From positions 1-49,965 of the forward strand of contig JAEUUD010000003.1 of NCBI GenBank assembly GCA_016787625.1: DNA of 49,965 nt, read 5' to 3'. The stretch is from Cyclobacteriaceae bacterium. Its GTDB lineage: Bacteria; Bacteroidota; Bacteroidia; Cytophagales; Cyclobacteriaceae. The position numbers and the translations under genes are program-made. This document shows positions 5,849-10,312 of this stretch, piece after piece (positions within the stretch are counted from its first letter, which is position 1; each line of letters starts with the position of its first letter). Under the pieces are notes generated by a model. It searched no databases. It was not told the origin of the DNA and worked only from the letters and a program-made list of their open reading frames with translations.

Positions 5849-8455
5849 TTAGATCTTCTTCACTTCGCGGTTCTCATAGCTTTCAATCACATCCCCGACT
5901 TTCATATCGTTGAAGCCCTCGATACCCATACCGCAGTCGAAGCCGGAGCGCACTTCACTCGCATCGTCTTTGAAGCGCTTGAGCGAGCTGAGCTTGCCGG
6001 CATAAACCACAATACCATCACGGATAAGTCGTATTGGGTTAGCGCGTTTGATATACCCGTCTGTGACCATACATCCGAGGATGGTGCCCACTTTGGAAAT
6101 CTTGAATACTTCGCGCACGTCGGCGTTTCCGACAATGACTTCTTCCATTTCTTTTTCAAGCATACCCTCCATGGCACTCTTGACATCGTTGATGGCGTCG
6201 TAGATGATTGAATAGAGACGAATCTCGATCTCCTCGTTCTCCGCAAGCCTTCTCGCCGAGGCTGAAGGACGTACTTGAAATCCTACGATGACGGCATCGG
6301 AAGCAGAGGCAAGCAGTACGTCTGACTCAGAAATCTGCCCCACAGCCTTGTGAATGATCCCCACCTGAATCTTTGGTGTAGACAGTTTCAACAATGAATC
6401 TGATAGCGCTTCTACTGAACCATCCACGTCACCCTTGACGATGACGTTGAGCAGTTTGAAAGAACCGATGGCAATCCGTCGGCCAATTTCATCAAGTGTA
6501 ATGTGCTTCTTGGTGCGGATGCTCTGTTCACGTACAAGCTGTGCCCGTTTGGTGGCTACTTCGCGCGCCTCGCGGTCCGTTTCATACACAGCAAACTTTT
6601 CACCGGCCTGCGGTGCGCCATCAAGGCCCAGTACCTGGACCGGCGAAGAAGGCCCAGCCTCCTTGATTCTTGCACCGGTGTCTTCAAACATGGCTTTAAC
6701 ACGGCCATGATTAGACCCCGCAAGAACGATATCACCAACCCTGAGGGTGCCGCTTTGAACCATCACGGTAGCCACGTAACCACGACCCTTGTCCAGGGAT
6801 GCTTCAATCACGGAGCCCACAGCCGGTTTGTTTGGATTGGCCTTCAGGCTAAGGAGTTCGGATTCCAGAATGACCTTTTCCAGGAGTTCGTCAATGCCTT
6901 TACCGGTCTTGGCCGAAATTTCCTGGCACTGGTATTTTCCTCCCCACTCTTCAACAAGGATGTTGTTCTTGGAAAGCGATTCCCTCACCTTATCCGCATT
7001 GGCAGTAGGCTTGTCAATTTTATTGATGGCAATCACGATGGGTACACCAGCGACTTGTGCGTGATTGATTGCCTCCTTCGTCTGGGGCATTACATCATCA
7101 TCAGCAGCAACCACGATAATGGCTACATCGGTGAGTTTGGCTCCGCGGGCACGCATGGCGGTAAACGCTTCGTGACCGGGAGTATCGAGAAATGCAATTT
7201 TTTGTCCGCTCTTGGTGGTCACATCATATGCGCCGATGTGCTGTGTAATACCCCCGGCTTCTGAAGCAACCACTTTCGTATTGCGGATGTAGTCAAGCAA
7301 GGAAGTTTTACCGTGGTCAACGTGACCCATGATCGTAACGATGGGGGCACGTGGTAGCAGGCTTTCTTCCGGCTCGCTAACCTCTTCCTGTACAGCTTCC
7401 TCCTCCGAGGAAATGAACTGGACATCATAACCGAATTCGTCAGAGATCACCGTGATCGCCTCGGCATCAAGACGCTGGTTGATCGATACGAACATGCCCA
7501 GGTTCATGCATGTTGAGATGACATCGTTAACCGACACATTCATCATGGAGGCCAGGTCATTGGCAGAAATAAATTCCGAAACACGCAAAGTCTTTGAAGC
7601 CTCCTGCTCTTTCAGCATTTTTTCTTCTTCTGCTTCCGAGACGGCCTGTCTTTTCTCCTTGCGGTATTTAGCGCCTGAGAATTTCTTCTGACCTCCGCTG
7701 AGCTTGGCAAGGGTCGCCCTGATTTGGTCCTGGATTTCTTTTTCCGAAGGCTCACCCTTGGCTGTCATGGGTCGTTTTGACCCAGCACCTGCTGAGGAGC
7801 GACCCTTCTCATTGGGAAGGGATACAATCCTCTTTCTTGGCCGCTTTTTGCGGGAATCATCGCGGCTTTCAGCCGGCGCAGGTTTCTTCTCTTCAGGCAA
7901 CTCAATTTTGTCGACGACCTTCAGGCCTTGCAGCTTGCTGGCCTTGGCCTTGATCAACTCAAGTTCAGGTTGCTTTTCAGCTTCAGGAGCTTTTGGTGGC
8001 TCCACAGCTTTCACTTCATCTTTAACCGGTGTTTCCTTCTTCTTTTTTTCAAGCTCGATTTTGCCCAGCACTTTGATGCCTTCAAGCTTGGCTGTCTCGC
8101 GCTGTACTTTCTCCGGTTTTCCTTCTTCCTTCGCCTTGATCTCTTTCGATCCAAGATTCTTGATGAGGATATTATCGTCCTCCTCTGTCTTCTTGCGGTG
8201 AGTCTCCGGGTCGCTTTGGATGGTCAGCGTCTCCGTATGCTTGGCGCCAATGGTTAGTACGGAGGCTTCTATCTTCTCAGAGGCGGAAGACGCATACTCC
8301 TTGGCGAGCATGGCAAACTGCTCAGAGGTAAGTTTTGCATTCGGATTGTTTTCAACGGCAAAACCTTTCTTCGCCAAAAATTCCAATATGGTGTTGTGAC
8401 CCACATTGAGTTTGCGCGAAGCCTGTCCTAACCGTATCATTTTTTCTTCTGCCAT
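5849..8455 (-). CDS. infB: Translation initiation factor IF-2
   Basis: GTPase that brings initiator tRNA to the 30S subunit and promotes 50S joining. From the ATG at 8455 (868 residues; a TTG two codons upstream is unlikely) the protein starts [20 protein letters not shown], an IF2-N helical domain. A long charged Lys/Glu/Pro linker of about 300 residues follows, then a second IF2-N-like segment. The GTPase domain has G1 [10 protein letters not shown]3 DTPGHEAF, G4 NKID and G5 SAKTGKG, followed by IF2 domains II-IV. It is the last gene of rimP-nusA-infB and is followed by a strong terminator. The linker contains two related stretches, [13 protein letters not shown] and [13 protein letters not shown]. 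Confidence 0.97.
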
Positions 8456-8505
8456 GCTCAAAGTTGACTATGTTTTTTCTGATTTAGCGGATATTATCTG
8501 TTAAT

Positions 8506-9750
8506 TTATTCAAATTCCTTGCTCAACACAGCGACAACATTGTCGACAGTCTCTTCTTCGAGATCAGTTCGGCGCACAAGTTCTTCCTTGTTAAGAGCCA
8601 ACACACTCTTCGCCGTGTCAAGGCCTATTTGCTTGAGCTGATCGATGACCCAGCTTTCGATCTCGTCTGAGAATTCATCCAGATCAACATCTTCCTCTGT
8701 TGTTTGCTCACCGAGCTCACGGAACACATCGATCTCCATACCGACCAACCGACTGGCCAGTTTAATATTGAGCCCTCCCTTGCCGATCGCCAGGGAAACC
8801 TGGTCCGGCTTGAGATATACTGATACCCTGTTGTTCTCCTTGTCAATTTTCATGCTGACCAGTTTGGCGGGGCTCAGGGCGCGCTGGATAAACAATTCCA
8901 GGTTTTCTGTGAAGTTGATCACATCAATGTTTTCATTCTGAAGCTCACGAACAATGGCGTGAATGCGTGACCCTTTCATCCCTACGCAAGCGCCTACCGG
9001 ATCAATACGGTCGTCGTAAGACTCCACGGCTACCTTGGCGCGTTCACCGGGCTCCCGCACTGCCTTCTTGATGGTGATCAATCCATCGTAAACCTCGGGT
9101 ACTTCCTGTTCGAACAGGCGCTCAAGAAAAACAGGAGACGTGCGAGACAGAACGATCTTTGGATTGCCATTCACCATTTCAACTTTGTGAACGATGGCCC
9201 GCACGTTTTCGCCCTTCCGATAACGGTCTTTGGGAATCTGTTCACCGCGGGGAATGGAAATTTCATTGCCTTCAGCATCGATCAACAATACTTCGCGACT
9301 CAATACCTGGTAAACCTCGCCGGTGATGATCTCGCCGACAATGTCCTTGTATTTCTGAAATAGAATATCTTTTTCAAGATCCTTTACTTTCTGCATCAGC
9401 GTCTGCCGGGCAGTCGTCACAGCGCGGCGGCCAAAATCTTCAATCTCGATTGGCTCAGAAACCTCCTCGCCTACTTCGAAATCAGGTTCAATTTTCCGGG
9501 CTTCTGTCACACTGATTTTATCGTGATCCCAGATGTCTTCAGATTCGTCTTCGACAATCTCACGAATGCGATAGATCTCAAGATCGCCTTTGTCAGCGTT
9601 GATGATGATGTCGAAATTGTCATCGTACGTATATTTTTTCTTGATCATCGTACGGAAGACATCCTCCAGGATTCGAATCATGGTCGGACGATCAATGTTC
9701 TTCTGCTTGGCAAAGTCAGCGAACGATTCAATCAAATTGGATATATCCAT
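8506..9750 (-). CDS. nusA: Transcription termination/antitermination factor NusA
   Basis: RNA polymerase-associated factor affecting pausing, termination and antitermination. The order is an N-terminal RNAP-binding domain (about 1-130), S1 domain (about 135-200), and two KH domains (about 230-345, with DPVGACVGMKGSRIHAIVRE and LAIGKGGLNIKLASRLVG), then an acidic segment and a short C-terminal helical region. At 414 residues it lacks the long acidic-repeat extension of the E. coli protein, as is usual in Bacteroidota. It starts six bases after the rimP stop; infB begins about 50 bases after the nusA stop. Confidence 0.96.
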   Translation of the reverse strand: MDISNLIESFADFAKQKNIDRPTMIRILEDVFRTMIKKKYTYDDNFDIIINADKGDLEIYRIREIVEDESEDIWDHDKISVTEARKIEPDFEVGEEVSEPIEIEDFGRRAVTTARQTLMQKVKDLEKDILFQKYKDIVGEIITGEVYQVLSREVLLIDAEGNEISIPRGEQIPKDRYRKGENVRAIVHKVEMVNGNPKIVLSRTSPVFLERLFEQEVPEVYDGLITIKKAVREPGERAKVAVESYDDRIDPVGACVGMKGSRIHAIVRELQNENIDVINFTENLELFIQRALSPAKLVSMKIDKENNRVSVYLKPDQVSLAIGKGGLNIKLASRLVGMEIDVFRELGEQTTEEDVDLDEFSDEIESWVIDQLKQIGLDTAKSVLALNKEELVRRTDLEEETVDNVVAVLSKEFE

Positions 9751-9756
9751 AAACTG

Positions 9757-10221
9757 TTATTTAAAAGATACCATTACAAATGCTTTCTCGATGTCATTGA
9801 AGGGTATGACAATTTCTCTTTCGGAAACCTTCTTGCCTTCCTTAATTTCTTGCTTGAGTACTACGCCAGCAGCATCCGCACGATCCAGTTTACCGCTTAC
9901 AAGGCTCTTGTCTCGGCGCTGTACTTTCAGACCCCTTCCCACATTCTTCACATACTGTCTTTGAAGTTTCAGTGGATGATCAACGCCAGGTGTGGTCACT
10001 TCCAACACATACCGACTTGTTCCAAAATCCATTTCATCCAGCCTGGACGACAATGAGCGGCTAAGCTCCCCACAATCGTCAATGGTCACGCCGTTGTCAC
10101 CATCGATGACAACAGTAATTTTTGAAAGATTTTTGGCTGAGGCGATTACTTCGACCAGAAAATGGCCGGGTTTAAGGCTCTTAGCGACTAAATCTTCCAA
10201 TTTTGACCGTATTTCCATCAT
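9757..10221 (-). CDS. rimP: Ribosome maturation factor RimP
   Basis: Assists 30S subunit assembly. The 154-residue product has the family signatures KNLSKITVVIDGDNGVTIDD and RYVLEVTTPGVDHPL, then an Sm-like C-terminal domain. Two adjacent ATG codons (10221 and 10218) are possible; the first overlaps the stop of a 14-codon leader ORF as ATGA. First conventional gene of the rimP-nusA-infB operon, an order conserved across bacteria. Confidence 0.95.
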   Translation of the reverse strand: MMEIRSKLEDLVAKSLKPGHFLVEVIASAKNLSKITVVIDGDNGVTIDDCGELSRSLSSRLDEMDFGTSRYVLEVTTPGVDHPLKLQRQYVKNVGRGLKVQRRDKSLVSGKLDRADAAGVVLKQEIKEGKKVSEREIVIPFNDIEKAFVMVSFK

Positions 10222-10262
10222 TTTCGATAAACAAAGAGGGGACTTTTGGTCCCCTCTTTCAT
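10218..10262 (-). CDS. Putative leader peptide of the rimP-nusA-infB operon (14 aa)
   Basis: Downstream of the operon promoter the minus strand has ATG at 10262 followed by 13 sense codons, MKEGTKSPLFVYRK, and a TGA at 10220-10218 that overlaps the rimP ATG (ATGA). The codons for Lys-Glu-Gly-Thr-Lys-Ser-Pro-Leu-Phe contain both arms of the perfect hairpin at 10233-10259. Translation would therefore disrupt the hairpin and could couple to rimP initiation. No Shine-Dalgarno is evident. Whether the peptide is really made is untested; the frame, overlap and hairpin are seen directly. Confidence 0.45.
   Translation of the reverse strand: MKEGTKSPLFVYRK
10233..10259 (-). promoter_or_regulatory. 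Leader hairpin upstream of rimP (attenuator candidate)
   Basis: Perfect 11-bp inverted repeat: AAAGAGGGGAC, five-base loop, GTCCCCTCTTT. On the minus strand it is followed by GTTTAT, so it could act as a weak intrinsic terminator or as an RNA structure near the rimP start, 11 bases downstream. It sits between the promoter at 10312-10282 and rimP, and wholly inside the leader ORF. Confidence 0.65.
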
Positions 10263-10281
10263 TGTTCTAATAAGAAGTATG

Positions 10282-10312
10282 CAAATGTAGTTCTTTTTTA
10301 TCTTTCGGCCAA
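10282..10312 (-). promoter_or_regulatory. Promoter of rimP-nusA-infB operon
   Basis: The minus strand reads TTG, 20 bases, then TACATTTG, a full match to the Bacteroidota -33/-7 pattern. The -7 element ends 60 bases before rimP, leaving a leader that carries the 14-codon ORF and hairpin. Confidence 0.65.

Follow-up and report, generated by a model that had tools for sequence, protein, structure and literature searches.

In the Cyclobacteriaceae bacterium represented by contig JAEUUD010000003.1, rimP, nusA, and infB follow one another in an operon on the minus strand, and a hairpin element lies in its 5' leader (Table 1). The window, i.e., the whole stretch of DNA that was analysed, is 49,965 nt long, and all positions refer to it. 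Two tandem ATG codons open rimP, at 10221 and 10218 on the minus strand; in an alignment of gene starts, relatives use the counterpart of the second, which is thus the conserved RimP start.

Table 1. Features of the rimP-nusA-infB locus and its leader in the window
Feature	Positions	Strand	Basis
Promoter: TTG (10312-10310), 20-nt spacer, TACATTTG (10289-10282)	10282..10312	-	Read in the sequence
5'-end element ACTTCTT, near the inferred transcription start	10272..10278	-	Partial conservation in the genus
14-codon ORF MKEGTKSPLFVYRK, ATG (10262-10260) to TGA (10220-10218)	10218..10262	-	Present; probably not a gene
Putative terminator hairpin AAAGAGGGGAC-CAAAA-GTCCCCTCTTT; conserved core GAGGGGAC/GTCCCCTC	10233..10259	-	Fold and conservation
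Interrupted T-tract TTTGTTTAT after the core stem	10227..10235	-	Read in the sequence; commonest tail among relatives
rimP	9757..10221	-	RimP_N and RimP C-terminal domains (Pfam)
nusA, second gene of the operon	8506..9750	-	NusA_N and NusA-type KH domains (Pfam)
infB (IF2), third gene of the operon	5849..8461	-	IF-2, IF2_N, and GTPase domains (Pfam)

The initial annotation described a perfect 11-bp inverted repeat with a five-base loop followed by GTTTAT, and all of these elements are present on the minus strand (10259-10249 and 10243-10233, 100% complementary, 5-nt loop). The 65-nt leader RNA is predicted to fold at -21.5 kcal/mol (z -4.85), and none of 200 dinucleotide shuffles folds as well. 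The first rimP ATG lies 11 nt after the hairpin. The tail, TTTGTTTAT, provides the U-stretch that characterises the rimP-leader (see below), albeit interrupted; it is a weak U-tract, which counts against termination. When both strands of the 50-kb window were scanned in 159-nt tiles, 12 of 1246 tiles, corresponding to 8 distinct sites, were terminator-like, and the rimP leader was the sole site with TAnnTTTG at most 35 nt upstream. Excluding the antisense of the hairpin, there are six other terminator-like sites in the window, of which four contain six or more consecutive T and two do not. A simpler terminator scan flagged the hairpin on the plus strand only; it missed the minus strand because T residues were counted after the full 11-bp stem, where the tail is T-poor.

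The promoter proposed ahead of rimP, TTG-N20-TACATTTG, can likewise be read in the window. TAnnTTTG is reported as the -7 box of flavobacteria (PMC9723704), and transcription would start at about 10277, about 5 nt after TACATTTG. The promoter motif and the hairpin are 22 nt apart.

Conservation of the leader was assessed in several samples. A search of 58 relatives detected RimP in 54, and upstream DNA was taken for 50 of these 54 (G040, G044, G053, and G055 were left out); L007, whose contig ends at rimP, was dropped, giving 49 leaders in the first set. RimP was also found in 137 of 138 phylum genomes, and the phylum leaders comprise all 29 class genomes, 3 family genomes, and 28 of the 103 genomes of other classes with a RimP match. 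The second set consisted of 80 relatives, one of which was dropped at a contig end, leaving 79; it overlaps the first (e.g., L120 and L002), and the counts of the two sets are not independent.

The exact core, GAGGGGAC-N3-8-GTCCCCTC, is present as a single copy in each of 41 of the 58 relatives. Within the genus, 35 of 36 genomes carry it, and elsewhere in the order 6 of 22. The reversed control of this pattern has no occurrence in the 58. The core adjoins rimP in all 41 genomes that have it: in 40 by coordinates next to the rimP match, and in the last (G021) on a separate contig that breaks off inside the rimP start. A terminator-like site with a T-rich tail is more widespread. All 35 genus leaders and all 3 family leaders have one, as do 12 of 14 order leaders, 25 of 29 class leaders, and, with different stem letters, 17 of the 28 leaders sampled from the phylum's other classes; shuffling leads one to expect about 0.1 sites for genus, family, order, and class together and about 0.3 when the other classes are included. 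The hairpin is preceded by TAnnTTTG at a distance of at most 35 nt in 35/35 genus, 3/3 family, 11/14 order, and 24/29 class leaders, while site and motif occur together in just 4 of the 28 sampled leaders of the other classes. In the second set, the terminator-like site is found in 78 of 79 leaders, as is the TAnnTTTG promoter (at most 35 nt away), and the exact 8-bp core in 67 of 79; the one leader scored as lacking the site (L168) has the hairpin with a poor tail. Shuffled versions of 77 second-set leaders contained a terminator-like site in 9 of 3850 cases. The initial annotation had proposed conserved pairing in relatives as a check on the hairpin, and such conservation is indeed observed.

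Among 160 class-level leaders, 153 have at least six T in the nine positions after the core, and seven fail the terminator criterion; four of these (L031, L069, L070, and L168) have a hairpin and fail on tail or loop, and the other three (L042, L076, and L079) have no clear hairpin. Most of the 160 leaders come from the order to which the window belongs; together, the 160 reduce to 114 distinct hairpin-and-tail sequences, of which 73 carry GAGGGGAC/GTCCCCTC. The tail of the window, TTTGTTTAT, is the commonest (22 of 114), and the first non-T falls at tail position 4 in 51 of 114. A covariance model (R1, E 0.01) matched 41 of the 58 relatives and 23 of the 138 phylum genomes; in 16 of these 23, the match lies at rimP. 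The search used stricter filters, with which weak matches may be lost, and the low phylum count is attributed to the model holding the family's own letters. Its matches away from rimP include G098, G067, G058, G063, G068, G188, and G140, and second matches occur in G132 and G167 (phylum) and in G012 and G010 (relatives). No plasmid copies were found at E 1e-5. Two alignments were left out of the counts, namely the MAFFT alignment A1, in which hairpins with 6-nt loops have their 5' arms shifted, and A5, which mixes both strands of the palindrome; a further one (A7) was inspected by eye and contributed no counts.

It should be noted that stems found by looking for pairing make the pairing counts partly circular. 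This applies less to genus g29, although it is represented by five genomes only. Their flanks are similar (mean column identity 85%), and the stem reads GAGGGGAC/GTCCCCTC in three and GAGGCACG/CGTGCCTC in two of them (L077 and L081 differ from L080, L083, and L085 in their stem letters). Four of the eight pairs are changed on both sides, all of them compensated, and all 40 of 40 cells are paired; thus, the compensatory changes that the initial annotation had named as a further check are found. For the percentage paired, the cells changed on both sides, and the covariation score, none of 500 shuffles is as high; neither the count of pairs with both sides altered (131/500) nor that of further pair types (313/500) exceeds the shuffles. 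When the partners are slid by 1 to 3 columns, pairing falls to 42-75%. The stem switch in g29 may represent a single evolutionary event.

Elsewhere in the class, stems such as GAAGGGAACG/CGTTCCCTTC are found. The 5' arm is G-rich, with G:C counts of 177:34 in the 35 genus leaders and 124:30 in the 25 class leaders with a site. At least 7 of the 28 leaders from other classes show the opposite polarity, i.e., a C-rich 5' arm and a G-rich 3' arm, as in TCGCCCG-TAA-CGGGCGA; these leaders (L091-L093, L100, L101, L109, and L111) resemble the first E. coli terminator. Taken as a whole, the comparisons indicate that pairing is under selection and that, near the window, the letters are as well. The core is near-invariant within the family, which exceeds the needs of a plain terminator.

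An attenuator at this position has been described before. Among transcription attenuators, the rimP-leader has been called the most ubiquitous; in many bacteria, rimP is preceded by a conserved terminator stem whose G-rich arm is followed by a C-rich one (Naville and Gautheret 2010, PMC2965389). According to the same paper, the general rimP-leader has no visible antiterminator, and NusA is the best candidate regulator; some Gammaproteobacteria have a second terminator together with a potential antiterminator. Its main text names Firmicutes and Gammaproteobacteria, and the string 'Bacteroid' is absent from that main text. Like the rimP-leader as described there, the window element has a G-rich 5' arm, a C-rich 3' arm, and a U-stretch, precedes rimP-nusA-infB, is conserved in sequence, and belongs to no larger conserved element. 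It departs from the exact GGGc(...)gCCC motif given in that description, since its core, GGGGAC/GTCCCC, places an A-U pair between the G-tract and the c-g pair; some other leaders have GGGGGC or TGGGGGC stems. Because the exact motif is absent, the window element was filed as a sequence variant of the rimP-leader.

In E. coli, two terminators are reported upstream of rimP (PMC6511841), and the K-12 leader indeed contains CCCCGATTTATCGGGG-TTTTTT and GGGCTTTAGGCCC-TTTTTTT as tandem terminators. The Rfam family RF01770 ('Gammaprotebacteria rimP leader') scores 102 bits at this E. coli leader. It reaches the gathering cut-off (47 bits) in none of the 58 relatives, among the matches listed; at E values up to 10, at least 57 of the 58 have matches, all below the cut-off, and five Bacteroidota loci (L001, L080, L077, L066, and L105) have no match at E up to 1. 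Thus, the family covers the same operon and does not recognise the Bacteroidota form. Rfam sraA also aligned at the site, scoring 26.2 bits (gathering score 56, E 0.33), and was taken as a chance match. Within the phylum, Flavobacterium psychrophilum has been listed as having a structured 5' element at rimP that is conserved across further Flavobacteriaceae genera and has no Rfam hits (2021, PMC9723704); this element is likewise a transcribed structured region before rimP in a member of the Bacteroidota, given in that list without sequence or mechanism. The text seen of PMC8060035 contains nothing on rimP or ylxS, and our literature search found no detailed analysis of a Bacteroidota rimP leader. 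The leader in the window is classed here as a sequence-distinct Bacteroidota member of the known rimP-leader attenuators.

As a whole, the observations are best explained by a premature intrinsic terminator, i.e., an attenuator of the rimP-leader kind, and we consider this reading highly likely; premature termination at the hairpin, taken as a separate claim, is very probable on the strength of the sequence comparison. Attenuation by a hairpin before rimP-nusA-infB had been proposed in the initial annotation, and it is borne out insofar as hairpin, T-rich tail, and short promoter distance are kept in most leaders of the same class. The comparison establishes the promoter motif, the hairpin, and the T-rich tail in this order, as well as compensated pairing in one genus. 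From this arrangement, we infer the start of transcription, termination in vivo, and a role for NusA. RNA polymerase would start about 5 nt past TACATTTG and make about 18 nt before the GC-rich hairpin and the interrupted U-tract are transcribed; a fraction of transcripts would end there (at about 50 nt), and the remainder would read into rimP-nusA-infB. Polymerase-bound NusA would raise termination at this imperfect terminator, and surplus NusA would consequently lower expression of its own operon; a leader peptide would not be required. The part of this scheme in which NusA is the main controller is somewhat likelier than not, by analogy with other phyla. In B. subtilis, NusA is reported to be most important at terminators with weak hairpins or interrupted U-tracts, and the nusA leader is an autoregulatory terminator at which NusA stimulates intrinsic termination (Mondal 2016, via the review PMC12288461). 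The interrupted U-tract of the window fits NusA dependence, which it does not show, and the B. subtilis leader was studied by NusA depletion, whereas the Bacteroidota leader is known from its anatomy.

Only 22 nt separate the hairpin from the promoter motif, which leaves little space for a classical antiterminator. Nonetheless, an unlikely but conceivable variant is that the leader is an autoregulatory switch of less than 70 nt, in which NusA or a partner would read the near-invariant G-rich arm in a sequence-specific manner, and the 5' ACUUCUU would counter it as a boxA-like Nus-factor site or by weak antiterminator pairing with AAGAGG of the hairpin. ACTT+CTT is present in 26 of 89 distinct promoter-to-hairpin segments (from 115 leaders), and these segments pair with the 5' arm over slightly longer stretches than letter shuffles do (4.81 vs. 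4.03, sd 0.11, with relatedness ignored). The pattern TANNTTTGNNNCACTTCTT (promoter-N3-CACTTCTT) has one site each in 19 of the 58 relatives, 14 of them in the rimP leader (L202-L213, L215, and L217) and 5 elsewhere. Its reversed control yields 11 sites in 8 of the 58, which places the 5 sites outside rimP at chance level and not the 14 in rimP leaders. The window itself carries CATACTTCTT, which falls outside the TANNTTTGNNNCACTTCTT pattern. The CACTTCTT element may serve as a boxA-like site or an antiterminator strand, or be no more than the initial transcribed sequence. 16S was found in one of six genomes tried. Both rRNA leaders of G023 contain the boxA-like GTTCTTTGAA, and one of them (L199, the 16S leader) additionally contains ACCACTTCTTG. 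The 5'-end element of rimP resembles the boxA of rRNA leaders loosely at most. The ACCACTTCTTG letters of L199 also occur near the 5' end of the G023 rimP leader (L050). The rimP match at L050 is in two pieces, the first with internal stops, perhaps a frameshift of a single-contig assembly.

Apart from termination, the hairpin might govern translation or stability of the rimP mRNA, for example as a binding site for RimP, a ribosomal protein, or an RNase. Its place close to the rimP start in the window and its near-invariant core, which suggests a specific partner, would suit such a role. However, the distance from hairpin to start varies from 4 to 81 nt (49 leaders, with extrapolated starts), whereas that from the promoter motif to the hairpin is kept more tightly, at 11 to 29 nt in the second set; moreover, the conserved T-tract would be unnecessary. 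A role of this kind without termination is accordingly rated as improbable.

Still less probable is that the palindrome acts as DNA, i.e., as an operator at which a dimeric repressor would bind just past the transcription start, even though it is perfect, has near-invariant half-sites within the family, and occurs as a single copy per genome. The spacer between exact half-sites ranges from 3 to 7, which would rotate the half-sites against each other, and the T-rich tail of the 153 leaders lies on the downstream side. In g29, the letters of the two half-sites change in concert. The mismatches are also those of RNA pairing: 102 distinct best stems contain 8 of the G-T and 2 of the A-C kind, small numbers that include a few doubtful stems (e.g., L157 and L076, which are not clearly the leader hairpin). 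This count was made without the terminator filter, since the filter passes G-T but not A-C.

The 14-codon ORF claimed to contain the hairpin is present in the window. Of the stop/start overlap described for it as ATGA, one part holds, as the TGA overlaps the first rimP ATG (10221); the other does not, because the ATG at 10221 is not conserved and relatives start at the counterpart of 10218. An ATG three bases before the AAAGAGGGG stem occurs only in the window and in L002 among the 49 leaders, and the L002 ORF has 17 codons in another frame, its loop being one base longer. In the second set, an ATG at the position of the ORF start is found in 1 of 78 leaders (L120). In L119, the closest relative in this set (RimP 70% identical), TCG stands at this position, and no ORF between promoter and hairpin starts with ATG. 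ATG-started ORFs that span the hairpin in any place or frame are found in 11 of 49 leaders (including the window and L002) and in 17 of 78 (including L120); the 9 and 16 that lie elsewhere share no common frame or length. The initial annotation had set lack of conservation in close relatives as evidence against the ORF, and the ORF is not conserved; the apparent leader peptide of the window is therefore most probably a chance feature. Leader-peptide attenuation or translational coupling, in which a ribosome on the hairpin-spanning ORF would hold the hairpin open and pass to rimP at the ATGA, can thus be set aside as very improbable, as neither ATG nor frame is kept and the peptide contains no stretch of a single repeated amino acid, and the proposed competition between translation and folding finds no support.

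The present analysis gives a sequence-defined account of the rimP-leader attenuator in Bacteroidota, with a single exact core per genome where it is present, and shows that the apparent leader peptide at rimP is not conserved. The near-invariant stem, also noted in the 2010 description of the rimP-leader, raises the question of what reads its sequence. Being defined in sequence, the leader makes NusA feedback directly testable in a phylum that has its own promoter type.
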